Of a stretch of 64,000 nt of DNA, positions 31,939 through 47,494 are shown in pieces. Source of the DNA: Rhodoferax potami (GTDB lineage: Bacteria > Pseudomonadota > Gammaproteobacteria > Burkholderiales > Burkholderiaceae_C); assembly GCF_032193805.1 (NCBI RefSeq), contig NZ_JAVBIK010000001.1:496001-560000 (forward strand). Reading direction: 5' to 3'. The position numbers were made by a program, and so were the translations under genes. The first letter of the stretch is position 1. Each line of letters starts with the position of its first letter. The notes beneath the pieces are model-generated. The model saw only the letters and a program-made list of their open reading frames with translations. It was not told where the DNA came from and searched no databases.

Positions 31939-32895
31939 TCAGGTCACTGGAACCAGAAATTCGCGACTGATATGCGCACCCAGGTCATTGACCCGATCCA
32001 GGAACTGGGTCAGGTAGGCGTGCAGGCCGGTGGCCAGAATCTCGTCGATACGTCCGTATTGCAGCTCCGAGCGCAGCTTGCCGGCGCGGCGCAGGGTTTC
32101 GCTGTCGGGATTGCTGGCCACGAGAGCCAGGTTACCCACTACCTCGTTCAGGCTGGCATGCAGCGAGCGCGGCATATCGGGCTTGAGGATGAGCAATTCA
32201 GCCACACGCTCGGGCTTGATGACATCGCGGTACACCTTGCGGTAGATCTCAAACGCCGACACGCTGCGCAAAATCGCGCTCCAGTGGTAGAAGTCGTATT
32301 CCTGATCCTTCTCGCTCGCAGCACCAAAGAAGTCGCTCTCCACTGCGTGGAACTTCACGTCGACCAAACGCGCGGTGTTGTCGGCCCGTTCCAAGAAGGT
32401 GCCCAAGCGCATGAAGTGCAAAGACTCGTCCATCAGCATGGTGCCCACCGTCACTCCGCGAGAGAGGTGGGAGCGGAACTTCACCCACTCAAAAAACTGC
32501 GAAGGATCTTTCTCAAAGTCTCCGCTCTTGATCATGCGCTTGACTTCGAGCCAGGTGGTGTTTTGCGTTTCCCACACCTCGGTGGTCAGCGCCCCGCGCA
32601 CCGCACGTGCGTTCTCGCGGGCAGCACTCAGACAAGACATGATGGAGGACGGATTGCTCTCGTCCTTGACCATGAAGTCCATGACCTCGCGAGCCTGGAT
32701 CTCGCCGTACTTTTCCTTGTAGGAATACAGCAGCTCACTGATGGACAGCAGGCCTTGCCAGCCCATCTGGGCCACGGCTTGGGATTGGGGAAGCAGCGAT
32801 GTCTGGTAGTTCACATCCAGCATGCGTGCGGTGTTTTCGGCCCGCTCGGTGTAGCGGGACATCCAGAACAGATGGTCAGCGGTGCGTGACAACAT
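31939..32895 (-). CDS. Alpha-E domain protein (DUF403)
   Basis: A 318-residue all-helical soluble protein with the alpha-E signature LSRTADHLFWMSRYTERAENTARMLDV (seen as its RTADHLFWMSRYTERAENTA core) and a matching later helix FMRLGTFLERADNTARLVDV. Alpha-E proteins nearly always accompany circularly permuted ATP-grasp ligases and transglutaminases and are thought to scaffold or process their product. It starts 18 bases after the ligase gene, with GAGGA upstream of ATG 32895. Its counterpart is fused to the ligase at 43887. Confidence 0.92.
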   Translation of the reverse strand: MLSRTADHLFWMSRYTERAENTARMLDVNYQTSLLPQSQAVAQMGWQGLLSISELLYSYKEKYGEIQAREVMDFMVKDESNPSSIMSCLSAARENARAVRGALTTEVWETQNTTWLEVKRMIKSGDFEKDPSQFFEWVKFRSHLSRGVTVGTMLMDESLHFMRLGTFLERADNTARLVDVKFHAVESDFFGAASEKDQEYDFYHWSAILRSVSAFEIYRKVYRDVIKPERVAELLILKPDMPRSLHASLNEVVGNLALVASNPDSETLRRAGKLRSELQYGRIDEILATGLHAYLTQFLDRVNDLGAHISREFLVPVT

Positions 32896-32913
32896 AGAAA
32901 GGTTTCCTCGTCC

Positions 32914-34452
32914 TTAAGCTGACTGTGTTTGTGATTGTGTTTGTGATTGTGTTTGCGACTGGGTGGCGGCTGTTGCGGCAGGCGCCGCAGGCACGTCTTC
33001 TTCCAGAATCCAGGTGTCTTTGGTGCCGCCGCCCTGGCTGCTGTTGACGACCAGCGAGCCTTCTTTCAGGGCCACGCGGGTCAAACCGCCTGGCACCATC
33101 TGCACGGTCTTGCCAGACAGCACGTAAGGGCGCAGGTCGATATGGCGGGGTGCGATGCCACTTTCCACAAAGGTGGGGCAGCTCGATAAGCTCAATGTGG
33201 GCTGGGCGATGTCGCCGGCCGGATTGGCCAGCACCGCTTTGCGGAAGTCTTCAATCTCGGCCTTGGTGGCAGCAGGCCCCACCAACATGCCGTAGCCGCC
33301 GGCGCCATGCACTTCTTTCACGACCAGGTCTTTCAAGTTGGCCAGGGTGTAAGCCAAGTCGTCCTTGTTACGGCACATGTAGGTGGGCACGTTGTTCAGG
33401 ATGGGCTTTTCACCCAAATAGAACTCGATCATCTTGGGCACATAGGGGTAAATGGACTTGTCGTCCGCAATACCGGTACCCACCGCGTTGCAGATGGTCA
33501 CATTGCCCGCGCGGTAGGCGTTGATGAGGCCGGCGCAACCCAGCGTGGACGTGGGGCGGAACACGGTGGGGTCGAGGAAGTCGTCATCCACACGGCGGTA
33601 AATCACGTCCACACGGCGCGGGCCGCGGGTGGTGCGCATGTAGACAAAGTTGTCTTTGACAAACAAGTCTTGCCCTTCGACCAGCTCCACACCCATTTGC
33701 TGGGCGAGGAAGGCGTGCTCAAAGTAGGCGCTGTTGTACATGCCGGGGGTGAGCACCACCACGGTCGGCTCGGCCGTCGTGGCCGGGCTGCTCTGGCGCA
33801 GGGTCTCGAGCAGCAAGTCGGGGTAGTGGGCTACAGGCGCCACGCGGTGGGCGCTGAACAGATCGGGGAAGAGCCGCATCATCATCTTGCGGTCTTCCAG
33901 CATGTAGCTCACGCCGCTGGGCACGCGCAGGTTGTCTTCGAGCACGTAGTACTCGCCGTTGCCCTTGGGGTCGGGAGCCCGCACGATGTCGATGCCGGAA
34001 ATGTGAGAGTAAATCTGGTGCGGCACATCCACACCCACCATCTCGGGGCGGAACTGGGCGTTGCCCTCAATCTGGTCGCGCGGCACGATGCCGGCTTTCA
34101 AAATCTCTTGGTCGTGGTAGATGTCGTGGATAAAGCGGTTGAGCGCATTGACACGCTGCACCAGGCCTTTTTCCATGCTGGACCACTCGTGGGCCGGGAT
34201 GATGCGGGGAATCAGGTCAAACGGGATCAGGCGCTCGGTGCCGGAGCCGTCCTCGTCTTTTTCGCCGTATACAGCGAAGGTAATGCCCACGCGGCGGAAG
34301 ATCATTTCCGCTTCTTCACGCCGTTTGGCCATCATGTCGCCGGGCTGGCGGGCAAGCCATTCGTCGTAAATCTTGTAGTGGTCTCTTATCTGGCTGCCCT
34401 TGCTGAAAAATTCATAAGGGAGCTGGGTGTACATCTCATCGAATTTCTGCAT
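32914..34452 (-). CDS. Circularly permuted ATP-grasp ligase (DUF404/DUF407)
   Basis: A 512-residue predicted ATP-dependent carboxylate-amine ligase. Seen are the N-terminal GITFAVYGEKDEDGSGTERL, the metal/ATP-site E172-D173-N174 in VLEDNLRVPSGVSYMLEDR, VVVLTPGMYNSAYFEHAFLA, and the lysine plus glycine-rich loop VVKEVHGAGGYGMLVGP (K379). The C-terminal SGIAPRHIDLRPYVLSG and VNSSQGGGTKDTWIL follow. All expected active-site residues are present, unlike in the fusion copy at 43887. The protein ends in a TQSQ repeat tail encoded by 12-bp tandem repeats. AGAGAGG precedes ATG 34452. It shares an operon with alpha-E. Substrates are unknown; it may form amide bonds in a peptide product. Confidence 0.92.
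   Translation of the reverse strand: MQKFDEMYTQLPYEFFSKGSQIRDHYKIYDEWLARQPGDMMAKRREEAEMIFRRVGITFAVYGEKDEDGSGTERLIPFDLIPRIIPAHEWSSMEKGLVQRVNALNRFIHDIYHDQEILKAGIVPRDQIEGNAQFRPEMVGVDVPHQIYSHISGIDIVRAPDPKGNGEYYVLEDNLRVPSGVSYMLEDRKMMMRLFPDLFSAHRVAPVAHYPDLLLETLRQSSPATTAEPTVVVLTPGMYNSAYFEHAFLAQQMGVELVEGQDLFVKDNFVYMRTTRGPRRVDVIYRRVDDDFLDPTVFRPTSTLGCAGLINAYRAGNVTICNAVGTGIADDKSIYPYVPKMIEFYLGEKPILNNVPTYMCRNKDDLAYTLANLKDLVVKEVHGAGGYGMLVGPAATKAEIEDFRKAVLANPAGDIAQPTLSLSSCPTFVESGIAPRHIDLRPYVLSGKTVQMVPGGLTRVALKEGSLVVNSSQGGGTKDTWILEEDVPAAPAATAATQSQTQSQTQSQTQSA
32924..32959 (-). repeat. Three 12-bp tandem repeats at the ligase 3' end
   Basis: The unit TGTGTTTGTGAT is repeated twice exactly and a third time with two changes (TGTGTTTGCGAC). 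On the coding strand it gives TQSQ, so the protein ends in a Gln/Ser/Thr tail whose length could vary without frameshift. Confidence 0.9.
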
Positions 34453-34511
34453 GTAAAAGACCTCTCTGATTACCTCTTATGCAAACTTCGGGCCACAGCG
34501 CCGATGCACCA

Positions 34512-37022
34512 CTATGGCACATCATGGGCCCAATAATGCCGCTCGTCTTCCCGCATACACGCCACATTTTGGGGCTCTGCAGAGTGCCAACGCGCCGCAC
34601 CACAACGGGGCGATAACACCAAATGGGTGCCTAAGGCTTCATAGCGCGCGACGACGGTCGCAGCAGGGTGCCCGTAGCGATTGCGGTAGCCTGCCTGCAC
34701 CAGCGCATGGCGTGGCTGGACTGCTCGCAAAAACGCGTCGGTGCTCGAAGTCTTGCTACCGTGGTGGGGCACCAAAAGCACATCCGCCCGAAGCAGCGGC
34801 AACATGGCCGGATCGTCCACCAAACGCTGCTCTTGCGCGGCCTCAATGTCACCGGCTAGCAGCGCGGCTTGGCGCCCGTTGCTGATGCGCAGCACACACG
34901 ACAGCGCGTTGGCTTTGGGGGCGGGCTCGGCCTCATAGTCCGCTGCGTCAGGGTGCAAGACCTCAAAGTCCACACCATCCCATTGCCAACGCATACCTGC
35001 CTCACAACGTTGAGACGCGCGCAGCTGTTGCAAGGTGTGCTGCGGCTCCAGCGAGCTCAGCAGGTTAGCGTGCGGCTGCATCATGAGTACCGCAGGCGCG
35101 CCCCCGACATGGTCGATGTCACGGTGGCTTAGTACCACCGTGTCGAGCTGCACATCGAGCGCTTTTAGCAGGGGCAGTAAGACGCGGTTGCCCGCGTCAC
35201 TCTCGAGGCTGTAGCGTGGGCCCGCATCAAACAGCAGGGCGTGTCGCGCAGTCTGCACCAGCACCGCGTTGCCCTGCCCCACATCGGCGGCGAGCAAAGA
35301 AAACTCACCCGGCTCCGGCACGGGCGGGCGCCACAGGAGCAGCGCCAACACCGGCACCAAGCCCATCATCCGCAAGGCACGGGGCAAGGGCATCAACAAA
35401 AGCGCAGCGCCCAAAGCCGCCAGAACGCCCGGCAGCAGCGGCGGCAAGGGCAAGCTCAACGCGGCGTAGGGCACAGCAGCAAGCGCATCCATAGCCGCGT
35501 AAAGCAGTACGACCGCACCGGTAGCTGCGGTCCAGAGCGCGGGCCAAACCAGCCCCAACAAACCCAGCGGGGTCACCACCAGCGTGACCCACGGAATCGC
35601 CACCACGTTAGCCAGCAACCCGACCAGCGACACTTGCCCGAACCACAACAACACGAGCGGCGCCAAAGCCAAGGTGATCAGCCACTGCTCCCGCCACATC
35701 GCCACCGCGCCTGCGCGGAGCCGGGCCCAGCCGCGCTCCAATTTGGAGCCATTTAGCCCTCTAGCCCCTGCACGACCTGCACCACCAGCTCCTGAATTGG
35801 TAGCATCTCCAGCGGCAAACAGCAGCATGACGGCCACAAAGCTGAGCCAGAACCCCGGCTGCAACATGGCCCAAGGGTCCCACAGCAGCACGCCTACTGC
35901 AGCCCACAGTGCCACCCAGGGCCAAGGCCATCTGGCGCCCTGCAATCGCAAGAGCACCACCATCGCCAGCATCAGGCAGGTGCGCTGTGCCGGCACGCCC
36001 CAGCCGGAAAACACCGCATACGCCGTGGCCAACAACAGGCCCATTCCCCACGCCGCGTGGGACGCGGGCACCCATTGGCACAAACGCGCTGATGTGCGCC
36101 AGCCCCGCCGGACCAGCCAGGTGGCCGCCCAGGCAAACATCGTGATATGCAGACCCGAAATGCTCACGAGGTGACTGATCCCTGTGGCGCGGAACACATC
36201 CCAGTCCGAACGCTCAATAGCCCGTTGATCACCCACCACCAGCGCGGTGAGCAAGCCGGCCGAGCGAGGGTCGGTGACCCGGGTCTGTATCCGGTCACGG
36301 ACCCATTGGCGCAGCTGTGCCACAGGCGCGGCCGTGGTCTGCTCCATCAGCTGTGGCTCCGGGCTGCTCACCGTGGCACGGACATAGCCGGTGGCCTGCA
36401 CGCCCTGGGTCCACAGGTACAGCTCGTAGTCAAAACCATGGGGATTGATGCTGCCGTGCGGCGCCTTCAGCCGCAATGGCAACTGCCAGCGCTGGCCGGC
36501 TCTCAAAGCAGGCGGTGTGCGCTGCAGCTCAGGGGTTTGGGTCTGGAGGTTGAAGCCGGTGGTGTACCACCCCACGTCGAGCAAAGCCGGCACAGTCACC
36601 GGTGTGCCATCCAAGAGCGCAGCACCCGTCCCGCTCTCGCCTGCGTCCACCCGTAGCCGGAAACGGAGCCCCGATTCGGTAGCTTGGGGCATATCTGCAA
36701 CGACGCCGGTCACCAGAACATCGCGCCCCTCCAGCGCAGGGGCTAGCGCTTGACTCATGAACAGCACGGCACGCAAGCCAGTCATCCCCCAAGCCAGCGC
36801 CAATGCACAGAGGCCCGCCACACCATGACGCCACAGTCCCACTATCTTTTTGCTAGCAACCCACGCATAACCCACAAGGGCCAGAAGCACAAACGCCACA
36901 TAAACCGCGGGCGCTGACAACGTGGCTTGCTGCAACTGCAACGCCATCCCCGCCAGCAGCCCCAACCCGACAGCACCGCCAGTGCGGGGCCAGACGGCAA
37001 GGCGGAGTGCGGTGGCGTACAT
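34512..37022 (-). CDS. comEC: ComEC/Rec2 DNA-uptake channel
   Basis: Inner-membrane channel that takes single-stranded DNA into the cytoplasm during transformation. The 836-residue protein has the full layout: N-terminal membrane segments and an OB-fold DUF4131 region (about 1-190), and the Competence domain with many membrane segments and GISHLVSISGLHITMFAW. A C-terminal beta-lactamase-like domain has SHRDIDHVGG and VPHHGSKTSST. It opens with TTG/ATG-type choices near 37022; that start gives MYATALRLAVWPRTG. A Gly/Ala/Arg-rich segment near residue 420 (GAGGAGRAGARG) coincides with a repeat copy. It separates the two arms of the ATP-grasp/transglutaminase locus. Confidence 0.93.
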   Translation of the reverse strand: MYATALRLAVWPRTGGAVGLGLLAGMALQLQQATLSAPAVYVAFVLLALVGYAWVASKKIVGLWRHGVAGLCALALAWGMTGLRAVLFMSQALAPALEGRDVLVTGVVADMPQATESGLRFRLRVDAGESGTGAALLDGTPVTVPALLDVGWYTTGFNLQTQTPELQRTPPALRAGQRWQLPLRLKAPHGSINPHGFDYELYLWTQGVQATGYVRATVSSPEPQLMEQTTAAPVAQLRQWVRDRIQTRVTDPRSAGLLTALVVGDQRAIERSDWDVFRATGISHLVSISGLHITMFAWAATWLVRRGWRTSARLCQWVPASHAAWGMGLLLATAYAVFSGWGVPAQRTCLMLAMVVLLRLQGARWPWPWVALWAAVGVLLWDPWAMLQPGFWLSFVAVMLLFAAGDATNSGAGGAGRAGARGLNGSKLERGWARLRAGAVAMWREQWLITLALAPLVLLWFGQVSLVGLLANVVAIPWVTLVVTPLGLLGLVWPALWTAATGAVVLLYAAMDALAAVPYAALSLPLPPLLPGVLAALGAALLLMPLPRALRMMGLVPVLALLLWRPPVPEPGEFSLLAADVGQGNAVLVQTARHALLFDAGPRYSLESDAGNRVLLPLLKALDVQLDTVVLSHRDIDHVGGAPAVLMMQPHANLLSSLEPQHTLQQLRASQRCEAGMRWQWDGVDFEVLHPDAADYEAEPAPKANALSCVLRISNGRQAALLAGDIEAAQEQRLVDDPAMLPLLRADVLLVPHHGSKTSSTDAFLRAVQPRHALVQAGYRNRYGHPAATVVARYEALGTHLVLSPRCGAARWHSAEPQNVACMREDERHYWAHDVP
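35753..35808 (+). repeat. Dispersed repeat inside comEC
   Basis: The right half reads CACCAGCTCC-TGAATTGG-TAGCATC, matching the repeat pattern and especially the reversed copy at 43998. Read in the comEC frame it gives a Gly/Ala/Asn-rich loop between membrane segments, which looks like an insertion. Confidence 0.55.
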
Positions 37023-37180
37023 GCAACCATGCTAACCGCGCGCAAGGGGCGACAAACCCTCCGCTATGGAGGCACTGGCGCGGACCTTGCTTTAAAAGCC
37101 TGTCAAACCCGATTGTTAGTATGGGGCCCGTGCGGTAACCGCTGCACGGCGTCCCCTGTGAGATCTACCGAGACCGGCCC

Positions 37181-40100
37181 ATGTCCATTCACGCAGCGCT
37201 GAACCACGTTACCCACTACTCGTACGACCGTCTGGTCAACCTCGGTCCCCAAGTCATCCGCCTGCGCCCGGCGCCACACTGCCGCAGCAAAATCATCTCT
37301 TACTCGCTCAAGGTCGAGCCGAGCACCCACTTCGTCAACTGGCAGCAAGACCCGTTTGCCAATTACCAGGCCCGCCTGGTGTTCCCCGAAAAAACCAAGG
37401 AATTCAAAGTCACAGTCGACCTGGTGGTCGAAATGGCGGTGTACAACCCCTTTGACTTCTTCCTCGAACCCACGGCCGAAAACTTCCCGTTCAAGTACGA
37501 CAAGCTGCTGGGCCAAGAGCTAGCCCCCTACCTGGCTGCGGAGCCGCTGACCCCGGAATTCAAAAAGTTCTTAGGAGCCATTGACCTCAAGGAGCGCCGC
37601 ACCATCGACTTTCTGGTCTACATCAACCAGCTGGTGCACAACGCCGTCAGCTACACCATCCGCATGGAGCCCGGTGTGCAAACGCCGGAAGAAACCCTGA
37701 CGCTGGCCAGCGGGTCGTGTCGCGACTCCGGGTGGCTGCTGGTTCAACTGCTGCGCCATTGCGGGCTGGCAGCACGCTTTGTATCGGGCTACCTGATTCA
37801 GCTGGCACCGGACGTCAAATCCCTGGACGGCCCCAGCGGCACCGAAGTCGACTTCACCGATCTGCACGCCTGGTGCGAGGTCTATTTGCCCGGCGCAGGC
37901 TGGATCGGGCTGGACGCGACCAGCGGCCTGCTGGCAGGAGAGGGCCACATCCCGCTGGCCTGCACCCCGCAGCCCAGCGGCGCAGCCCCGATCGAAGGCG
38001 GCGTGGACAAGTGCGAGGTGGAGTTTGCCCACCACATGCAAGTCACCCGCATGTACGAGTCCCCCCGCGTCACCAAGCCTTACACGCCCGAACAGTGGGC
38101 CGAAGTCATGACTCTGGGCGACGCGGTAGACGCCGAACTCGTGGCCGGCGATGTGCGCCTGACCATGGGTGGCGAGCCCACCTTTGTGGCGGTGAACGAC
38201 CGCGACGCGCCCGAATGGAACACCGACGCCCTGGGCCCCACCAAGCGCGGCTTCGCCACCGAGCTGGTGCACAAACTGCGCGACGAATACGGCCAGGGCG
38301 GCTTTCTGCACTTCGGCCAAGGCAAGTGGTATCCCGGCGAGCAACTACCGCGCTGGGCGCTCAATGTTTACTGGCGTGCCGACAAGCAGAAGGTGTGGAA
38401 CAACCCCGCCCTGTTCACCGACGAGCGCAAGCCCACCCACTACACCGCCGAAGACGCGGGCTACTTCATCCGCACCCTGGCCGGCAAGCTGGGCCTGACC
38501 GACAAGTACGTGCAGGCCGGCTATGAAGACACCTGGTACTACCTGTGGCGCGAGCGCCGCCTGCCGGTGAATGTGGACCCCTTCAACAGCAAGCTCGACG
38601 ACGAGATGGAGCGTGCCCGCCTGCGCCGCGTCTTCGAGCAAAAGCTCGACTCGGTGGTGGGCTATGTGCTGCCGCTCAAAGTGGGCGATGGCCCGCGCCT
38701 GACAGGCAAGGGCAGCAACCCCAGCCTTTCCGGCCCGTGGTGGACTACCGGTCCCTGGTTCTTCCGCGACGAGCGCATGTACCTGATGCCCGGCGATTCG
38801 CCCATGGGCCTGCGCCTGCCGCTGGATTCCCTGCCCTGGGTCAGCGAAGGTGACTACCCCTATCTGGTGGAGCGCGACCCGACCGTGGACCGCGGCGCGT
38901 TGCCAGCGCACGCGGCCTTTGCACAGCGCTATGCACCCAACGCCACGACCGCAACGACCGCCGGTCATGCAGGCGCCCCTGCGGCCACCGGTACCAGTGC
39001 AGGCTCTTTAGATGCCAACGGAGTGCCTTACCTGGCCGGCAACCTGGCCGTACCCGAAGCCGGTCGCAAGATGCAAACCGCCAAGGGCACGGGGGACGCC
39101 AGCATTGCGGCCAACGCCCAAAGCGCCACGCAGCCAGAGCCCGCAATGTACGCACAAGCGCCCAAGCGCTTTGAGTCCGCCCACTGGATCACCCGCACCG
39201 CCCTGTGCGTAGAGGTGCGCGACCCGCGCCGCGCCAGCGGCCCCAAAGCCGAAGCCGTGGGCTCCAAATCCGGCGTGCTGTACATCTTCATGCCGCCACT
39301 GGAGCGGCTGGAAGACTACCTGGACCTGCTCGCTGCCATCGAGGCCACCGCTGCCGAGCTGAAGATGCAGATCGTGCTGGAAGGCTACCCGCCTCCCCGC
39401 GATCCACGCCTCAAGCTCCTGCAAGTCACGCCCGACCCCGGCGTGATCGAGGTCAACGTGCACCCCGTCACCAACTGGAAAGAACTGGTCTACAACACCG
39501 AGTTTTTGTACAACGCAGCGTTCGAGTCGCGCCTGAGTGCTGAGAAGTTCATGACCGACGGCCGCCACACCGGCACCGGCGGTGGCAACCACTTCGTGAT
39601 GGGCGGCGCCACACCCGCAGACAGCCCTTTCCTGCGCAAACCCGAGCTGCTGGCCAGCCTGCTGCTGTACTGGCACAACCACCCTTCCTTGAGCTACCTG
39701 TTCAGCGGCATGTTTGTGGGCCCAACCAGCCAGGCCCCGCGTGTGGACGAAGCCCGCAACGACCAGCTGTATGAGCTGGAAATAGCCATCGAGCAAATCT
39801 ACAAAAACCGCGAGCTGTATGGCCAGAGCATGCCGCCCTGGTTGGTGGACCGCACGCTGCGCAACATCCTGATTGACGTGACAGGCAACACCCACCGCAG
39901 CGAATTCTCCATCGACAAGATGTACTCGCCGGACTCGTCCACGGGTCGTTTGGGCCTGCTGGAATTGCGCGCCTTCGAGATGCCGCCCCACCCGCACATG
40001 AGCAGCGTACAGCAGCTCTTGCTGCGCGCGCTGGTGGCCCGCTTCTGGAAGTCGCCGTACAAGGCCCCGGTCACCCGCTGGGGCACCGAACTGCACGACC

Positions 40101-40765
40101 GCTACATGCTGCCTACCTTCATCAAAATGGACTTTGATGACGTGATCGCAGACATGAACATGGCCGGCTACGCGTTCGACACCAGCTGGTTCGCCCCGCA
40201 CTACGAGTTCCGCTTCCCGATGGTGGGCTCAGTCAAGAGCATGGGCGTCGAGCTGACCTTGCGCAACGCGCTGGAACCTTGGCATGTGATGGGCGAAGAA
40301 AGTTCCGCAGGCGGCACCGCCCGCTATGTGGACTCCAGCCTGGAACGCCTGGAAGTACGTGTCACCGGGCTGAATGAGAGCCGCTACGTGGTCACCTGCA
40401 ATGGCGAAGCCCTGCCCATGACCAGCACCGGCACGGTGGGTGAATTTGTAGCTGCCGTGCGCTACAAGGCCTGGAACCCGCCGAGCAGCCTGCACCCCAC
40501 CATCGGTGTGCATGCCCCGCTGACCTTTGACATTGTGGACACCTGGATGAAGCGCTCGCTGGGCGGTTGCCAGTACTTTGTGGCCCACCCCGGCGGGCGC
40601 AATTACGACACCTTCCCGGTTAACAGCTACGAGGCCGAAAGCCGTCGCCTCTCGCGATTCAGTCCATTGGGCCACACACCGGGCATGCTGGTGGTGCCAC
40701 CCGCCACCATCCATGTGCCAGGCAGCAAAGAATTCCCGTTCACCAAAGACATGCGCAGGAACTGA
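37181..40765 (+). CDS. Transglutaminase-DUF2126 protein (1194 aa)
   Basis: A very large cytoplasmic protein without signal peptide. The N-terminal ~100 residues form the beta-rich bacterial transglutaminase leader (ALNHVTHYSYDRLVNLGPQ). The transglutaminase core has a complete triad: C180 in SGSCRDS, H229 in DLHAWCEVY and D245 in LDATSGLL. From about 330 on lies DUF2126 (VRLTMGGEPTFVAVNDRDAP, QGKWYPGEQLPRWALNVYWR, RTGTGGGNHFVMGG-like GTGGGNHFVMGG), which comparative work has grouped, from memory, with COOH-NH2 ligases of the glutamine-synthetase type. A Pro/Ala/Thr-rich insert spans about 585-660. Divergent from comEC; 159 bases upstream hold the promoters, with no clear hexamers seen. Probably works with the ligase and alpha-E genes across comEC. 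Confidence 0.92.
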   Translation: MSIHAALNHVTHYSYDRLVNLGPQVIRLRPAPHCRSKIISYSLKVEPSTHFVNWQQDPFANYQARLVFPEKTKEFKVTVDLVVEMAVYNPFDFFLEPTAENFPFKYDKLLGQELAPYLAAEPLTPEFKKFLGAIDLKERRTIDFLVYINQLVHNAVSYTIRMEPGVQTPEETLTLASGSCRDSGWLLVQLLRHCGLAARFVSGYLIQLAPDVKSLDGPSGTEVDFTDLHAWCEVYLPGAGWIGLDATSGLLAGEGHIPLACTPQPSGAAPIEGGVDKCEVEFAHHMQVTRMYESPRVTKPYTPEQWAEVMTLGDAVDAELVAGDVRLTMGGEPTFVAVNDRDAPEWNTDALGPTKRGFATELVHKLRDEYGQGGFLHFGQGKWYPGEQLPRWALNVYWRADKQKVWNNPALFTDERKPTHYTAEDAGYFIRTLAGKLGLTDKYVQAGYEDTWYYLWRERRLPVNVDPFNSKLDDEMERARLRRVFEQKLDSVVGYVLPLKVGDGPRLTGKGSNPSLSGPWWTTGPWFFRDERMYLMPGDSPMGLRLPLDSLPWVSEGDYPYLVERDPTVDRGALPAHAAFAQRYAPNATTATTAGHAGAPAATGTSAGSLDANGVPYLAGNLAVPEAGRKMQTAKGTGDASIAANAQSATQPEPAMYAQAPKRFESAHWITRTALCVEVRDPRRASGPKAEAVGSKSGVLYIFMPPLERLEDYLDLLAAIEATAAELKMQIVLEGYPPPRDPRLKLLQVTPDPGVIEVNVHPVTNWKELVYNTEFLYNAAFESRLSAEKFMTDGRHTGTGGGNHFVMGGATPADSPFLRKPELLASLLLYWHNHPSLSYLFSGMFVGPTSQAPRVDEARNDQLYELEIAIEQIYKNRELYGQSMPPWLVDRTLRNILIDVTGNTHRSEFSIDKMYSPDSSTGRLGLLELRAFEMPPHPHMSSVQQLLLRALVARFWKSPYKAPVTRWGTELHDRYMLPTFIKMDFDDVIADMNMAGYAFDTSWFAPHYEFRFPMVGSVKSMGVELTLRNALEPWHVMGEESSAGGTARYVDSSLERLEVRVTGLNESRYVVTCNGEALPMTSTGTVGEFVAAVRYKAWNPPSSLHPTIGVHAPLTFDIVDTWMKRSLGGCQYFVAHPGGRNYDTFPVNSYEAESRRLSRFSPLGHTPGMLVVPPATIHVPGSKEFPFTKDMRRN

Positions 40766-40800
40766 TCTGAAGCGTCACATGGTTCGCATCTAATCTGCTG

Positions 40801-41898
40801 ATGCGAATGTCATTCCTTAGCCATCAGCCCCGGCTGCACGGGCCGGCGTTGCTGCTGTGCAGCGCGCTGGCCAGTGCAGCATTTCTGCTCATGGGTGTGC
40901 CCGCGGGCATGTTGCTGGGTTGTATGCTGGCCGGTGTCCTGCTTGCCACGCAGGACATGAAAGTGCAAGTACCCGCCCCGCTGTTTGCCATTGGCCAGTC
41001 AGTCATCGCCTGCCTGATGGCGCACAGCCTGCATTTCGAGGTGCTGCAACGCGTGGCCGGCGAATGGCCGCTGTTCCTCGGTATTGCTTTTGCTGTGATG
41101 GCGGCCAGCGCGCTGCTGGGTTACTGGCTGATGCGCAGCGGTTTACTGCCGGGCAGCACCGCCATCTGGGGCTTGGCACCGGGCGCGGCCTCCGCCATGG
41201 TGCTCATGGCCGGTGATTTCGGTGCAGACACCAGGCTGGTGGCATTCATGCAGTACCTGCGGGTTGCCATGGTCACGGCGATTGCTTCGCTGGTGGCTCA
41301 CTTTGCAACAGGCGTTGCGGCCTCCCCCGAACACGTCGCACCCGGTTGGGATGTCCAGCTGGCCCATTGGCTGCACATCCAAAACCCCTTGCATGCCGGG
41401 CTGACTCTTGTGCTGGTGCTGATTGCCGCCTGGCTGGGCCGCGTCCTCACATTCCCCGGTGGCCCTTTGCTGATCCCCATGGTGCTGGCACTGGCGATGG
41501 ACAACCTCAGCCCTTGGAAACTGGAGCTGCCGGGCCCGCTGCTGGCGCTGGCGTATGCCGCGCTGGGCTGGGGCATAGGACTGCGCTTCAACCGCGAAAT
41601 TCTGGAGCACGCCTGGCGGGTGTTGCCGCGGGTACTGGTTGCCATTTTTGCCCTGATCGTGCTCGGTTTGGTGATTGCTAGCAGCCTCATGTTTTTTGCG
41701 GGCGTTGCCCCACTCACCGCCTACCTGGCCACCAGCCCCGGCGGTGCGGACTCGGTGGCGGTAATCGCCGTGGGCAGCGCGGTCGATGCAGGTTTTGTCA
41801 TGGCCATGCAAATGGTCCGTTTTTTCATGGTGTTGCTGCTGGGCCCGCGCCTCTCGCGCTGGCTGGTGCAACGACTCACAAGCCGCAGTGCGGCCTGA
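40801..41898 (+). CDS. AbrB-type membrane protein
   Basis: A 365-residue polytopic membrane protein with about ten hydrophobic segments and two internal repeats, matching the membrane family confusingly called AbrB or ammonia monooxygenase (not the DNA-binding AbrB). Conserved pieces are GLAPGAASAMVLMAGDFGAD and TSPGGADSVAVIAVGSAVDAGFVMAMQMVRFF, the two related helix hairpins of the family. Transported substrate unknown. It starts 35 bases after the DUF2126 gene, so it may be co-transcribed and could export or import something tied to that system; this is inference. Confidence 0.82.
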   Translation: MRMSFLSHQPRLHGPALLLCSALASAAFLLMGVPAGMLLGCMLAGVLLATQDMKVQVPAPLFAIGQSVIACLMAHSLHFEVLQRVAGEWPLFLGIAFAVMAASALLGYWLMRSGLLPGSTAIWGLAPGAASAMVLMAGDFGADTRLVAFMQYLRVAMVTAIASLVAHFATGVAASPEHVAPGWDVQLAHWLHIQNPLHAGLTLVLVLIAAWLGRVLTFPGGPLLIPMVLALAMDNLSPWKLELPGPLLALAYAALGWGIGLRFNREILEHAWRVLPRVLVAIFALIVLGLVIASSLMFFAGVAPLTAYLATSPGGADSVAVIAVGSAVDAGFVMAMQMVRFFMVLLLGPRLSRWLVQRLTSRSAA

Positions 41899-41931
41899 CG
41901 TGTTTCTTTTTTCAACTCAACCAGGATTTTT

Positions 41932-42639
41932 ATGCCCTCTATCAACTTCATCGGCGGCGAAAAAGGCGGCGTCGGCAAATCGGTGCTGGCGCGCGTTTTG
42001 GCCCAGTGCTTTATTGACAAGGGCCGCGCCTTCACGGGTTTTGACACCGACCGCTCGCACACCTCCTTCGCCCGGTTTTACAGCGACTTCGCGTCGCCGG
42101 TCGTCGTGGACACCTACGAGGGTCTGGACCTTGTAGCCGCGGTCTACGAAGAAGAGCCCGCCGAAGGTCCGCCACCGAATGTGATCGTCGATCTGGCCGC
42201 GCAAACAGCCGCACCGCTGGCCCGATGGGTCAAAGACTCCGACCTGGTTTCGCTGATGGCTAGCATGGGCGTCACGGTGAATTTCTGGCATGTGGCGGAT
42301 GCCGGCAGAGACTCTGTCGACCTATTGGACCGCTTGGTTGTCACCTACGGCGCCGGGCCGAACTACATCGTGGTGAAAAATCTCGGCCGCGGCAGCGATT
42401 TCTCGCAACTCGAGGAGTCCGCAGCGCTCAAGAAAGCGGTGGCGCTCGGCGGCCACGTAACGACTTTGCCCCAGCTGCACGAAGCCAGCATGCGCAAGAT
42501 CGACCGGCAAAACGCCAGTTTTTGGGCGGCCGTCCACAGCAAAGAGGGGGACGATGCGCTGGGCATGCTGGAGCGCCAGCGTGTGAAAACCTGGCTCAAA
42601 AACTGTTACAGCACCTTCGATGCCCTGCCGCTGGGTTGA
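41932..42639 (+). CDS. Orphan ParA/MinD-like ATPase
   Basis: A 235-residue P-loop ATPase with the deviant Walker A GEKGGVGKS (residues 9-17, with the signature Lys at 11), and DTDRSH as the second nucleotide-contacting loop. VIVDLAAQTAAPLARW is the Walker B region, where the usual DxP is altered to DLAAQ. The C-terminus (about 160-235) is specific to a group often labelled mobilisation protein. No parB, parS or cell-division partner is adjacent, so plasmid partition is unlikely. AGGA lies 5 bases before ATG 41932. It could position or switch on a partner protein; which one is unknown. Confidence 0.8.
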   Translation: MPSINFIGGEKGGVGKSVLARVLAQCFIDKGRAFTGFDTDRSHTSFARFYSDFASPVVVDTYEGLDLVAAVYEEEPAEGPPPNVIVDLAAQTAAPLARWVKDSDLVSLMASMGVTVNFWHVADAGRDSVDLLDRLVVTYGAGPNYIVVKNLGRGSDFSQLEESAALKKAVALGGHVTTLPQLHEASMRKIDRQNASFWAAVHSKEGDDALGMLERQRVKTWLKNCYSTFDALPLG

Positions 42640-42720
42640 AACACCCGCCAACACTGGAGTGCTTTAGCCGGGTATTGATGAAGATCAAGTGCTCGGGCTG
42701 GGGATTTCATAACAATCCAG

Positions 42721-42747
42721 ACATGCCCCGCTATCGTGCGGGCATGT
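42721..42747 (+). other. Hairpin between the ParA-like and HiPIP genes
   Basis: ACATGCCC and GGGCATGT form a perfect 8-bp stem with an 11-base loop, 24 bases before the HiPIP start. No T-run follows. It may stabilise the HiPIP mRNA, weakly terminate the upstream gene, or be a protein-binding inverted repeat. Confidence 0.5.
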
Positions 42748-42770
42748 CTTTCACCCTAGGAAACCAAGCC

Positions 42771-43076
42771 ATGACACAACGTCGCGAATTTATCGTTCAA
42801 GTCGCGCTCGGCAGCACTGCGCTGCTGGCAAGCCAGGTTCAAGCAGCAGGCCCCATGTTGGCTGAGACCGACGCCCAAGCCGGTGCACTCGGCTACAAGG
42901 CAGACGCCACCAAGGTGGACAAAGCCAAGTTCCCCAAATACGCCGCTGGCCAACTGTGCAACAACTGCGCGCTCTACCAGGGCAAAGCTTCTGACGCCGC
43001 TGGTGGCTGCCCCTTGTTTGCCGGCAAACAAGTCGCCGGCAAGGGCTGGTGCAGCGCGTGGGCCAAAAAGGCCTGA
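42771..43076 (+). CDS. High-potential iron-sulfur protein (HiPIP), Tat-exported
   Basis: A periplasmic one-electron carrier with a [4Fe-4S](2+/3+) cluster. The 101-residue precursor has a Tat signal (QRREFIVQVALGSTALLA, twin Arg at 4-5) cleaved after about residue 26 (QVQAA). The mature part has four cluster cysteines, C63 and C66 (CNNCALYQG), C80 (GGCPLF) and C94 (GKGWCSAW). In Rhodoferax-type bacteria HiPIPs feed the photosynthetic reaction centre or terminal oxidases; no such partner is in the window. It has a terminator directly after it, suggesting a short abundant transcript. Confidence 0.95.
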   Translation: MTQRREFIVQVALGSTALLASQVQAAGPMLAETDAQAGALGYKADATKVDKAKFPKYAAGQLCNNCALYQGKASDAAGGCPLFAGKQVAGKGWCSAWAKKA

Positions 43077-43134
43077 TCGTTTTTGTAGCCTGAAGGCTGC
43101 GCCCGTCGCGGCCGCCCTTGAGGCTGTGGCCGAC

Positions 43135-43169
43135 AGCCACCGCAACTCGCGTTGCCGGTGGCTTTTTTT
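43135..43169 (+). terminator. HiPIP terminator
   Basis: Arms AGCCACCG (43135-43142) and CGGTGGCT (43156-43163), with inner AAC/GTT, followed by a run of T to 43169 that overlaps the stop codon of the convergent flavin reductase. Confidence 0.88.
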
Positions 43170-43788
43170 ATTGGGGGCGGAACATCTTGAAAAGTTGCTC
43201 TGGCCCCACGCTGAAGTAATCCGCCGGCCCGCCGCCGCGCAAGACATGCCCGGCTGCAGCGGTGTCGTAGACCCCGTCCACCAGCAAGCGCCGGTCCAGG
43301 TGCACCCCGACCACCTCGCCCAAGACAAGCCAACTGGGCACCGTGGCACCAGCCGCCGTTTGCAGCTGAACGACCTGGGTGCAGCGGCACTCAAAGCTCA
43401 CCGGGCTTTCCAGCACCCGGGGTACTTGCACCAGGTTGGAGTTCACGGGGGTCAGGCCCGCCAGGGCAAATTCATCGACCTCCGGGCCGACAGGCGCACA
43501 GGTCTGGTTCATGGCTTCCGCCAGCGGCCGTGTCACTAAATTCCAGACAAACTCACCGGTGGCCTCGATGTTGCGCACCGTGTCTTTGTAGCCAATGCTC
43601 GAAAAACCCACGATGGGCGGCACATAGTTGAACGCATTGAAAAAACTATAGGGCGCAAGATTCAGCAGCCCATCCGCGCTGCGGCTCGAAATCCAGCCGA
43701 TAGGCCGGGGGCCCACGATGGCATTGAAGGGATCGTGGGGCAAACCATGCCCCAAGCGGGGCTCGTAAAAATGGAAGTCAGCTGTCAT
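43168..43788 (-). CDS. Flavin reductase-like FMN-binding protein
   Basis: A 206-residue split-barrel flavoprotein. Seen are the opening HDPFNAIVGPRPIGWISS, LAPYSFFNAFNYVPPIVGFSS (the flavin phosphate region), KDTVRNIEATGEFVWNL, and VVQLQTAAGATVPSWLVLGEVVGVHLD. Family members reduce flavin for a monooxygenase or act as stand-alone oxidoreductases. ATG 43788 gives the conserved MTADFHFYEP start. It is divergent from the ligase-alpha-E fusion and convergent with HiPIP. No oxygenase partner is adjacent. Confidence 0.85.
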   Translation of the reverse strand: MTADFHFYEPRLGHGLPHDPFNAIVGPRPIGWISSRSADGLLNLAPYSFFNAFNYVPPIVGFSSIGYKDTVRNIEATGEFVWNLVTRPLAEAMNQTCAPVGPEVDEFALAGLTPVNSNLVQVPRVLESPVSFECRCTQVVQLQTAAGATVPSWLVLGEVVGVHLDRRLLVDGVYDTAAAGHVLRGGGPADYFSVGPEQLFKMFRPQ

Positions 43789-43886
43789 GGGGTGTATCCG
43801 GCGAGTGGGCTTGGCCGAAAGTATGACCGGCATAGTGATTGCTTGCAGACCGGAGAAATCAGCCCTTGCTGGCATACTTGGTCATA

Positions 43887-46511
43887 GTGACACATTCTGA
43901 CGAATCCCGCCCCGACCCCAGCACCGAAAGCGCTGCCGACGTACTGCGCTTTGCGCGCGCCTGCCGCGCCCATGAAAGCCATTTTGACGAACTCCGTGGC
44001 GCTATCAATTCAGGAGCTACCGACACACACTTGACCAGCGTGTGGCGGCAATTCTTTAACAATATGGAGGGCAGCAGCGAGGCTGCACTCGACCAGCACA
44101 TTGCCAGCCTTCAGCGACAGATCCGTGACAACGGCGTCACCTACAACGTCTATGCCGACGCCGAAGGCCCCCAACGCCCCTGGTCGCTGGACTTGTTTCC
44201 GCTGATCGTCGATGCACCGGATTGGGCCCATATCGAGGCAGGTGTGCAACAGCGCATGCAACTGCTGGAAGCAGTCATGGCCGATGTCTACGGCCCGCAG
44301 CAGCTCTTGCAGCGCGGTCTTTTGCCGCCCGCTCTGGTGCACGGCCACCCTGGCTACCTGCGCCCCATGGCCGGCGTACAGCCGGTGGGCGGGGTGCACT
44401 TGCATGTGGCAGCCTTTGATCTCGCCCGCGGGCCGGACGGCAATTGGTGGGTGGTGAGCCAGCGGTGCCAGGCGCCGAGCGGCCTTGGCTATTTGCTGGA
44501 AAACCGGCTTGCCGTGTCCCGGCAGTTCCCGCAGGCGTTTCAGGCGCTCAAGGTGCAGCGCTTGGCCAGCACCTACCGCGCCCTGATGGACAGCCTGAAA
44601 AACGCCAGTCCCGCGGGTGCCCAAGCCCATATCGCCCTGCTGACACCCGGCCCTTACAACGAAACCTATTTTGAGCACGCTTACCTGGCCCGCTACCTCG
44701 GCCTGAGTCTGGTCGAAGGCAGCGACCTCCTGGTGCGCGATGAGCGCCTTTACCTCAAGACCCTACGTGGCTTGGTGCCGGTACACGGCCTGCTCAAGCG
44801 GGTGGACGACCAGTACCTTGACCCGCTGGAGTTGCGGCCCGATTCCACCCTGGGTGTGCCGGGCCTGTTGCAAGCGATACGCGCCGGCAATGTGCTGGTC
44901 GCCAACACCCCCGGTTCTGCGTTTCTGGAGTCGCCCGCGCTGCTGGGCTTTCTGCCGGCCATCGCCCAAGCCTTGCTGGGTGAGCGCTTGAGCCTCCCGG
45001 CCTTGCCTACCTGGTGGTGCGGCGAGCGCAGCGCCATGGAAGCCGCCCTGCCCTTGCTCGGCGAGCGCACCATCAAGCCGACCTACCCCGGCTCCAGCAT
45101 CCACCCCAGCTTTGATGCGATGCTGGGCCACACGCTGCAGCAAAGTGCATTGGACCGCTTGGCCGGCCGCATCGTGCGCCAAAGCGAAGAGCACACCGTA
45201 CAGGCTTATATGCCCCTGTCGCAAATGCCAACCTGGCGCAACCCTGCCGACGGCAAGGGCGGATCAGCAGGCATGGAAGCTCGCTCCGTCATGCTGCGGG
45301 TGTTCGCCGTGTCTGCCGGCCGCAACGCCCAAGGCCAACCGACCTGGCAAGTACTGCCCGGCGGCCTGGCCCGGGTGGCGGGGACGAGTACGGACATTGC
45401 CTCCATGCAACGCGGCGGCAGCAGTGCCGACGTCTGGGCGCTCACCCGTGGCGAAGTAGACACCACCACGCTGCTGCCCACCACCCTCACCCCTGCCGTG
45501 TTGGCCCAGCGCAAACGTTTGGTCACCAGCCGCGCTGCAGAAAACCTGTATTGGTTGGGTCGCTATACCGAGCGGGCTGACAACACCATCCGCCTGGCCC
45601 GGCTGGCGCTGGAGTACCTGGGCGGCGAAGAGCAGTCCAGCACGCCTTTGCTGCAATGGCTCACGGAGCTGGCGCAAATCAACACCCTCGTCCTCCCCGG
45701 GGTGCCGTCTGCGGTGCAAGCGCGGCGCGTTTTTGAGCGATCCATCATCGCCAGCCTAGCCTCGCCCGATGGCGCGACCGGCGTGGGCTACAACATGCGC
45801 GCCTTGAAGATGGCAGCCGCCACGGTGCGCGAACGCTTGTCCCAGGAGCACTGGGCCACCATCGTGCGGGCGGAAGAAGAAGTTTTCCAGCGTTGCGCCC
45901 AGTTGGCCGCGCAAGGAGACTACGCACCCAACCAGGCCCTGCGGATTCTCAAAGACGCCAGTGACCACCTCGCCGCCATCACCGGCGCCCAAACCGACCG
46001 CATGACCCGGGACGATGGATGGCGCCTGCTGAGCATCGGCCGGCATGTGGAGCGGCTGAATTTTCTGGCCACTGCCCTGGATCAGTCACTGGAGACCGGC
46101 GCCGTCGATACCGACGGTGGGTTTGAAGCCCTGCTCGGCTTGTTTGACAGCACCATCACGTTTCATGCCCAGTACCAGCAGAGCCGTGATGTGGCGGCGC
46201 TCATTGACCTGCTGGTTCTGGACCGCGACAACCCGCGCTCACTGGCGTGGGTCGCTCACACGCTGCGGGGCCGCCTGGCCAAACTCGCCCAGAGCCCCGC
46301 CCATGAACTTAGCGAAATGAGCTTACAAGTGCCATCGCCCGTCCGCTGGGACTTGGCCACTTTGTGTGAAAGCCCGGCCGATGGACCGGTGATGGGCCCG
46401 CTGCGGACGCTCCTCAAGTCCCTATGCCAAGCCGCCTACACCGTGTCTGAGGACATCAGCACCACCTATTTCACCCACTCGGGCGAAACCAAACAAAGCG
46501 TGGGTACCTGA
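43887..46511 (+). CDS. Circularly permuted ATP-grasp / alpha-E fusion
   Basis: An 874-residue fusion. Residues about 40-500 match the ligase at 32914 (VTYNVYADAEGPQRPWSLDL, LLTPGPYNETYFEHAYLARYLG, LRPDSTLGVPGLLQAI) and about 550-870 match alpha-E (LVTSRAAENLYWLGRYTERADN). At the putative metal site the ED-N of the stand-alone copy is replaced by SQRCQ (near 191-195), and the glycine-rich loop after K397 reads TIKPTYPGSSIHPS instead of VKEVHGAGGYGM. Either it binds ATP differently or is inactive. GTG 43887 is a guess among weak starts (TTG 43839 is also in frame). The stop overlaps the next ATG by one base, so the pair is coupled. Confidence 0.88.
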   Translation: MTHSDESRPDPSTESAADVLRFARACRAHESHFDELRGAINSGATDTHLTSVWRQFFNNMEGSSEAALDQHIASLQRQIRDNGVTYNVYADAEGPQRPWSLDLFPLIVDAPDWAHIEAGVQQRMQLLEAVMADVYGPQQLLQRGLLPPALVHGHPGYLRPMAGVQPVGGVHLHVAAFDLARGPDGNWWVVSQRCQAPSGLGYLLENRLAVSRQFPQAFQALKVQRLASTYRALMDSLKNASPAGAQAHIALLTPGPYNETYFEHAYLARYLGLSLVEGSDLLVRDERLYLKTLRGLVPVHGLLKRVDDQYLDPLELRPDSTLGVPGLLQAIRAGNVLVANTPGSAFLESPALLGFLPAIAQALLGERLSLPALPTWWCGERSAMEAALPLLGERTIKPTYPGSSIHPSFDAMLGHTLQQSALDRLAGRIVRQSEEHTVQAYMPLSQMPTWRNPADGKGGSAGMEARSVMLRVFAVSAGRNAQGQPTWQVLPGGLARVAGTSTDIASMQRGGSSADVWALTRGEVDTTTLLPTTLTPAVLAQRKRLVTSRAAENLYWLGRYTERADNTIRLARLALEYLGGEEQSSTPLLQWLTELAQINTLVLPGVPSAVQARRVFERSIIASLASPDGATGVGYNMRALKMAAATVRERLSQEHWATIVRAEEEVFQRCAQLAAQGDYAPNQALRILKDASDHLAAITGAQTDRMTRDDGWRLLSIGRHVERLNFLATALDQSLETGAVDTDGGFEALLGLFDSTITFHAQYQQSRDVAALIDLLVLDRDNPRSLAWVAHTLRGRLAKLAQSPAHELSEMSLQVPSPVRWDLATLCESPADGPVMGPLRTLLKSLCQAAYTVSEDISTTYFTHSGETKQSVGT
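43998..44021 (-). repeat. Dispersed repeat inside the ligase fusion gene
   Basis: The reverse strand reads GTAGCTCC-TGAATTG-ATAGCGCC, nearly the comEC copy. In frame it encodes GAINSGAT, in a poorly conserved N-terminal part of the protein. Confidence 0.5.
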
Positions 46512-47494
46512 TGCTGCTGCAAGTCACCCACGAAACCCGCTACGACTACCAACCCGCCGTTGAGACGGCGCAGCATGTGGCCTATCTGGAGCCGCGCGCC
46601 CACGGCAGCCAGCATGTGCTGAGCCACAGCCTGATCATCAACCCGCAGCCAGCCCAGCAACGCAGCGCACCGGATGTGTTCGGCAACCAGCGCTGTTTTT
46701 TCTCACTGCAGATACCCCATAGCGTCTTGCAGGTGAGGGCTTGCAGTCTGGTGTCCACGCGTGAGCAAATCCGCCCCCAAAGTAGTTTGCCCTGGGAGAC
46801 CCTGCGGGACCGGCTGCGCTTTCAGGCCGGTGCGGCTTACGAGGCAGCCGCAGAGTTTGTATTTGCCAGCCCGTTTGTGCCCCGGCAGCTGGAGTTCTCG
46901 GGCTATGCGCGCCCCAGCTTTGTTGCCGGCACCAGCCTGATCGCTGTGGCCTGCGACCTGATGGAGCGGATCCACACCGACTTCACCTACGAGTCCCACA
47001 GCACCCAGATCAATACCCCAGCACTGCAGGCCCTGGAGCAGCGCAAAGGCGTGTGCCAGGACTTTGCCCACATCATGCTGGCCTGCTGGCGCAGCATGGG
47101 CCTGCCTGCCCGCTATGTCAGTGGCTATTTGTTGACCCAGCCCGCGCCCGGACAAGTGAAGCTCATCGGGAGCGACGCGTCCCACGCCTGGGTGAGCGTT
47201 TATGTGCCGGACCTCCCTGAGGGTGAGCGCTGGGTGGATTTCGACCCGACCAACAACCGCTGGGGCTGGCACGCCCCCGGGGCCGACTATGTCACCGTGG
47301 CTACCGGGCGGGATTTTGGCGATGTGTCGCCGCTGCGAGGCGTCATCCATGGCGGGTCACGGCACACGCTAACGGTGGGTGTCACCGTCGAAGAAATCCG
47401 CACCGACAGCCCGCCAGCTGCTGCCCCTGCGCATAATGATGCGCCGCAGACCCAAACCCAAACGCAAGGCCCTGCGGCGGGCATGTCTCAATAG
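46511..47494 (+). CDS. Transglutaminase-like protein of the fusion locus
   Basis: A 327-residue cytoplasmic protein with the beta-rich leader (LLQVTHETRYDYQPAVETAQ) and a transglutaminase core with an intact triad: C182 in KGVCQDFAH, H225 in DASHAWVSVY and D245 in VDFDPTNN. Such enzymes hydrolyse or transfer amide bonds. Translation is coupled to the ligase/alpha-E fusion by a TGATG overlap. The C-terminus ends in a QTQTQTQ tail from repeated CCCAAA units, like the tail of the stand-alone ligase. Equivalent to the first 300 residues of the DUF2126 protein, without DUF2126. Confidence 0.92.
   Translation: MLLQVTHETRYDYQPAVETAQHVAYLEPRAHGSQHVLSHSLIINPQPAQQRSAPDVFGNQRCFFSLQIPHSVLQVRACSLVSTREQIRPQSSLPWETLRDRLRFQAGAAYEAAAEFVFASPFVPRQLEFSGYARPSFVAGTSLIAVACDLMERIHTDFTYESHSTQINTPALQALEQRKGVCQDFAHIMLACWRSMGLPARYVSGYLLTQPAPGQVKLIGSDASHAWVSVYVPDLPEGERWVDFDPTNNRWGWHAPGADYVTVATGRDFGDVSPLRGVIHGGSRHTLTVGVTVEEIRTDSPPAAAPAHNDAPQTQTQTQGPAAGMSQ

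Follow-up and report, generated by a model that had tools for sequence, protein, structure and literature searches.

A role in peptide synthesis or peptide tagging has long been predicted for the Anbu, alpha-E and ATP-grasp genes, and Iyer et al. 2009 reportedly predicted a peptide-tagging system composed of a circularly permuted ATP-grasp enzyme, a GS-like ligase, an NTN hydrolase and an alpha-E protein. Two reports describe an Anbu operon that codes for an ATP-grasp enzyme, an alpha-E protein, a transglutaminase and Anbu (PMC5666114, PMC6376114). According to the second, an ATP-grasp enzyme of such an operon frees phosphate from ATP, and the published hypotheses on the operon were unconfirmed to its authors' knowledge (PMC6376114).

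We analysed a 64-kb stretch of DNA, hereafter called the window, in which five genes, Agr, AaE, GIANT, Bfus and Btg, code for proteins of these families. Our main reading, which we hold with a probability just over 0.5, is that they form one amide-ligation system in two modules, with Agr as the working ligase, Bfus as its pseudo-ligase partner and a nitrogen-limitation relay of the form proposed below. The system is probably used in nitrogen starvation.

Gene content and nested occurrence of the two modules

A preliminary description of the window, made from the sequence alone, had listed the five genes with their domain families and coordinates and had placed them in an amidoligase/Anbu context. 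The list holds, each domain being confirmed by Pfam (Table 1), and the context was correct.

Table 1. Features of the two modules and of the genes around them, with positions in the window
Feature	Position	Strand	Details
AaE, stand-alone Alpha-E protein, module 1	31939-32895	-	318 aa; PF04168 336.7 bits, E 2e-100
Agr, circularly permuted (CP) ATP-grasp ligase, module 1	32914-34452	-	512 aa; PF14403 547 bits, E 2e-164
Sigma54-like -24/-12 site, Agr	34480-34495	-	28 bp before Agr start, inside 59-base ComEC-Agr gap
ComEC/Rec2	34512-37022	-	TIGR00361; upstream of Agr; left out of the proposed mechanism
Sigma54-like site, GIANT	37076-37091	+	90 bp before GIANT start
GIANT, module 2	37181-40765	+	1194 aa; Bact_transglu_N, Transglut_core, DUF2126 (1316 bits), Pfam
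AbrB-family membrane protein, ParA/CbiA-like protein, flavin reductase (-)	40801-43875		between GIANT and Bfus
Bfus, CP-ATP-grasp fused to Alpha-E, module 2	43887-46511	+	874 aa; Pfam E 1e-137 and 3e-60
Btg, transglutaminase, module 2	46511-47494	+	Pfam; overlaps Bfus stop

The genes of locus A (Agr, AaE) and locus B (Bfus, Btg) have ComEC, AbrB, ParA/CbiA-like and flavin reductase genes between them, and in a congener (L038) the same three genes (AbrB, ParA-like, flavin reductase) separate GIANT from Bfus. The 60 family loci showing ComEC, A-only loci included, contain 48 ComEC>Agr pairs, with ComEC/Rec2 upstream and both genes on one strand. For Bfus, an alternative in-frame TTG start at position 43839 would give an ORF of 890 aa, and the junction with Btg is a TGATG overlap. 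In a profile search of the whole genome, Alpha-E and Bact_transglu_N each matched twice, always in these genes, the Bact_transglu_N matches being GIANT and Btg.

Agr matches PDB 3n6x with 713 bits. It is followed by AaE as in the Anbu operon: 68 Agr>AaE pairs were counted in our synteny sample, which consists of 74 family loci chosen mostly for having A and B on one contig, A-only loci being represented by 14. The ER motifs of AaE, E17-R18 and E169-R170, are present in all 104 aligned sequences. Its structure model is all-helical and confident (pLDDT 91.9), and a search with it found no clear relative. AaE looks like an internal duplication, its halves aligning around the two ER motifs with a score of 73, the best of 500 shuffles reaching 64.

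Within the window, no transglutaminase gene is found beside AaE, and such a gene (Atg) is present in six of the 74 family loci. No Anbu gene is present in the 64 kb either, as the preliminary description had noted; nevertheless, the genome does encode Anbu, at C1:754264-755091, ~194 kb past the window end and ~224 kb from Agr, with mutS and an alpha/beta hydrolase gene as neighbours. The protein matches PDB 5loy, 'Designed Anbu Protein', with an E-value of 6e-94, and four natural Anbu or 'Peptidase' chains with E-values of 4e-84 to 3e-65. The other proteasome-like gene of the genome is followed by a 444-aa frame, an arrangement expected of hslV-hslU, which they presumably are. In the 60 loci sampled from the wider phylum, Agr and AaE are joined by the remaining genes of the Anbu operon, in the order Agr-AaE-Atg-Anbu (36 Agr>AaE pairs, 17 AaE>Atg and 16 Atg>Anbu). 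In our reading, module 1 of the window is the remaining start of the Anbu operon, with Anbu unlinked and Agr as its putative working ATP-grasp ligase.

Genome-wide counts were made in 250 family genomes, drawn evenly, and in 299 phylum genomes, A being scored as present when the best Alpha-E match had E < 1e-75. A and Anbu are both present in 196 family genomes, A only in 20, Anbu only in 8 and neither in 26. For any CP-ATP-grasp gene and Anbu, the corresponding counts among the matches listed for the phylum genomes are 100, 56, 1 and 142.

GIANT, which had been assigned to locus A in the preliminary description, travels instead with B: the two occur together in 159 family genomes, B without GIANT in 13 and GIANT without B in 3, and 75 have neither. 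In the phylum genomes the same counts, among the matches listed, are 73, 10, 11 and 205, B being called by hand in this set as a stop-free open frame reaching into alpha-E. In the 53 GIANT-bearing loci of the 74 family loci, GIANT precedes Bfus on the same strand, less than 400 bases away, in 44 pairs, and 53 same-strand Bfus>Btg pairs were found in the 74 loci. The 14 A-only family loci have neither GIANT nor B nearby, and both are also missing genome-wide. GIANT is grouped with locus B, so that Agr and AaE make up a core module and GIANT, Bfus and Btg the second one.

Module 2 is accessory and found almost only alongside module 1. The preliminary description had envisaged that relatives might keep A without B at random; what the family genomes reveal is a one-sided nesting, in which A is often without B (50/216) and B seldom without A (6/172). 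Among phylum genomes with B, 82 of 83 have at least two CP-ATP-grasp matches, as read from the table of the matches listed. By gene pattern, the 250 family genomes comprise 140 with A, B, GIANT and Anbu, 45 with A and Anbu only, 15 with A, B and GIANT without Anbu, 25 with none of them and 25 others. The A, B and GIANT counts keep the same pattern when 25 hand-marked low-quality genomes are left out (n=225). Because the sampled genomes share ancestry, Fisher values for co-occurrence overstate independence, and the one-sidedness is what matters.

In L067-L076, the five genes form a single run, Agr-AaE-GIANT-Bfus-Btg, and 10 Btg>Agr pairs in family loci represent the reverse module order, GIANT-Bfus-Btg-Agr-AaE. 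Four wider-phylum loci (L152, L154, L156 and L157) have Anbu between GIANT and Bfus, and L201, from a B. cenocepacia other than the one discussed below, has Agr-AaE-Atg-GIANT-Bfus-Btg in one row.

Some loci depart from these arrangements. L161 and L178 carry GIANT and Anbu adjoining Agr-AaE and a transglutaminase gene, without Bfus, and possibly represent an alternative form of the system. L096, of the same genus as the window, has no GIANT genome-wide; its Bfus and Agr are 52% and 88% identical to those of the window, in contrast with GIANT-bearing loci at 87-89% Agr identity, where Bfus is at 63-68%. Frames are interrupted in a few relatives, GIANT (L058) and Agr (L107) being in two pieces, as is ComEC in L056 and L098; sequencing error and decay are both possible there.

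Motif loss and conservation in the predicted enzymes

The Agr and Bfus proteins of the window are 31% identical, and VLEDNLRVPSG of Agr aligns gap-free with VVSQRCQAPSG of Bfus. To compare the two types, sequences were sorted into A and B by best match to the window proteins. The first alignment had 110 A and 97 B sequences, of which 36 and 37, respectively, came from outside the family; named genomes were then added to give 120 A and 179 B sequences. In a tree, the 179 B sequences are separated from the 120 A sequences with a support of 1.0. The E-x-N putative metal motif (E172, N174) and the glycine-rich loop (G385, G386, G388) of Agr are both present in 120/120 A sequences. We take E-x-N to be metal-binding, as in glutathionylspermidine synthetase; a profile comparison with that enzyme gave no significant match (E 0.3, prob 0.2).

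E172 and N174 are found in 0/179 B sequences, and E-x-N is thus gone from every B examined. Likewise, D331 and D439 are present in 110/110 A but 0/97 B sequences, and N470 in 109/110 but 0/97. Just 12, 26 and 11 of the 179 B sequences retain the three loop glycines, and the window Bfus has S403, S408 and D410 at these positions. Nevertheless, Bfus is under selection rather than in decay, since scaffold residues are invariant (W113, Q122, R123, D133, R207, E263, D280, D312 and R471, all 97/97) and B-specific invariants are present (G201, W377 and G379, 97/97; E348, 96/97). The ER motifs of its alpha-E part are found in 159/159 and 157/159 sequences; 18 of 177 Bfus sequences, which lack the pattern used to excise alpha-E, were left out of that alignment. 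Going by record titles, with some phylum names derived from the genus or order, B sequences come from eight phyla: Pseudomonadota, Acidobacteria, Planctomycetota, Verrucomicrobia, Bacteroidota, Chloroflexi, Poribacteria and Actinomycetota.

The reading of Bfus that we favour is a conserved pseudo-ligase which relies on A and would be catalytically inactive. Of the alternatives in the preliminary description, two products or a working and a regulatory copy, the second agrees with this degenerate B ligase. Gradual decay and eventual loss of the Bfus gene is a highly improbable reading, which the conservation data contradict: Bfus does diverge more quickly than Agr (46-53% identity for B where Agr is at 78%) and has an internal stop in two genomes (G150, G212) among the family matches listed, but it is present in 172/250 family genomes and in eight phyla with invariant scaffold positions. 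A re-tooled ATP-grasp domain, which would bind a nucleotide, an acyl phosphate or a peptide at a new site and perform different chemistry, is a possibility to which we give limited weight. The B-specific residues, with R in the N174 column of 166/179 B sequences besides the invariant G201, W377 and G379, are in its favour, as are two lysines that persist in about half of the B sequences (99/179 in the K379 column, 93/179 in the K478 column) and with which nucleotide binding by Bfus may remain. However, the complete loss of E172 and N174 and the near loss of the loop glycines argue against it, and no ATP-grasp ligase is known to us to function once the metal ligands are missing.

The pseudo-ligase reading of Bfus bears on the claim that each locus has its own amide-bond-forming enzyme, which probably fails for the ATP-grasp of B. 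GIANT combines a transglutaminase domain, with a Cys-His-Asp triad, and DUF2126. In alignments restricted to proteins inside set length limits, the triads are conserved in GIANT (C180 140/140, H229 139/140, D245 137/140) and in Btg (C182 159/159, H225 159/159, D245 156/159). The DUF2126 model has a pLDDT of 71.6, and its best 30 Foldseek rows against the PDB are all glutamine synthetases or YbdK. The best E-value is 7e-3, none being below 0.001, and the probability of 0.99 at the top falls to ~0.25. M. tuberculosis Rv2566 has been assigned to the carboxylate-amine ligase superfamily (PMC2588565), and the DUF2126 model agrees with this. We regard the DUF2126 domain of GIANT, a predicted glutamine-synthetase-like amidoligase, as the probable ligase of module 2.

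Promoter motifs and probable nitrogen control

We searched the 200 bp upstream of each gene for the sigma54-type motif TGGCAC-N5-TTGC, allowing no deviation in the GG and GC pairs and no more than one mismatch elsewhere. In the family, it is found in 28/72 Agr and 32/52 GIANT upstream regions, compared with means of 1.0 (max 4) and 0.9 (max 3) in shuffled sequences, whereas the control regions have 0/55 (ComEC), 0/73 (AaE), 0/57 (Btg) and 2/56 (Bfus). Beyond the family its frequency is far lower (Agr 4/29, GIANT 2/20), and upstream of the unlinked Anbu genes no site with at most one mismatch was found (0/20). NtrC-like sites are clear at Agr alone (21/72 vs 3.5 expected; GIANT 5/52 vs 2.2). 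The genome encodes a Sigma54_DBD gene.

The preliminary description had viewed the window as two parallel systems. That these are independent, with a separate working ligase and a separate product for each, is in our opinion improbable. The two ligases do fall into two clades at 31% identity, and A does occur without B in 50/216 genomes; nevertheless, B is nested in A, GIANT is tied to B, relatives have single runs, the promoter type is common to both modules in the family and the B site is degenerate.

Published expression data come from other species and are mixed. B. cenocepacia I35_5080-5083 are 6.0 to 9.4 log2 units down in an ntrC mutant and are named as common sigma54 and NtrC targets (PMC5491218). 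P. putida PP_2686-2688 are up under nitrogen limitation, with values of 11 to 37 across three strains, and the authors give ntrB/ntrC as putative regulator (PMC7801951). The rise occurs in all three strains, the rpoN mutant included, and the proteasome-like gene PP_2685 has values of 1.12, 4.81 and 1.45 in the three columns (PMC7801951). The rise in the rpoN mutant and the low PP_2685 values in two of the columns argue against sigma54 control as a general rule, as do the scarcity of the motif beyond the family, the restriction of clear NtrC-like sites to Agr and the lack of a site at the unlinked Anbu. Thus, nitrogen control of the gene set is well supported and sigma54 control in every species is not; in the window's organism, NtrC and sigma54 would control it.

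These data also bear on another reading, namely that the set serves mainly for nitrogen scavenging, with transglutaminase-fold amidases releasing ammonia from amides that the ligases have made or tagged. It agrees with the dependence on NtrC and sigma54 seen in B. cenocepacia (PMC5491218), the rise under nitrogen limitation in P. putida (PMC7801951), the promoter motifs in the family and the conserved triads. ATP-consuming ligases fit pure scavenging poorly, and we consider this reading rather unlikely.

Proposed mechanism and comparison with known systems

In the one-system reading that we prefer, nitrogen limitation would turn on both modules through sigma54 and NtrC. Agr would activate a carboxylate as an acyl phosphate and couple it to an amine, with AaE as its helical partner. 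Non-catalytic Bfus would use its old ligase pocket and its alpha-E part as a recognition platform and pass the product or the acceptor of Agr to the DUF2126 ligase of GIANT, and the Cys-His-Asp enzymes would hydrolyse or transfer the amides. The observed basis for this scheme is the gene grouping, the nested occurrence, the motif loss, the conserved triads and the family promoter motifs; we infer the lack of Bfus catalysis, the control in this organism, the substrate, the hand-over and the order of the steps. The six family genomes with B and without A speak against it, as does GIANT without B in 3 family genomes and, among the matches listed, 11 phylum genomes.

A more specific and more speculative version, which we advance with little confidence, is that a tagging relay operates in nitrogen starvation and that the dead ATP-grasp-alpha-E protein is its receptor, obligate and widely conserved. 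The live ligase would write an amide tag, the pseudo-ligase would read or carry it, GIANT would join, trim or move it, and Anbu would be an optional hydrolase. The split into a core and a dependent module, a pseudo-ligase found across many phyla and a nitrogen promoter can guide experimenters in choosing the ligase for assays, the bait protein and the growth condition in which to seek the product.

What is new relative to the known families is the nested modules and the pseudo-ligase fused to alpha-E; no earlier report of either was found in the literature searched, which did not cover Iyer et al. 2009. The protein families of the system reportedly predicted there are those found here. The nested modules, the pseudo-ligase-alpha-E fusion and the promoter motifs at both modules are added to it here. 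A further protein to consider is M. tuberculosis Rv2569c, reportedly a serine protease according to the title of one paper. It is presumably encoded near Rv2566-Rv2567, belongs, we assume, to the transglutaminase family, and is possibly related to Btg.

Compared with the Anbu operon (PMC5666114, PMC6376114), Agr and AaE are of the same ligase and alpha-E kinds, but the window has no transglutaminase gene after AaE, and Anbu is unlinked and without a sigma54 motif. In B. cenocepacia, I35_5080-5083 are alike in comprising DUF404/407, DUF403, transglutaminase and large transglutaminase genes; expression evidence is available for that cluster, whose description covers, in the excerpt, no genes matching Bfus or Btg (PMC5491218). 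Lastly, M. tuberculosis Rv2566, a transglutaminase joined to a carboxylate-amine ligase, shares both parts and their order with GIANT (PMC2588565).
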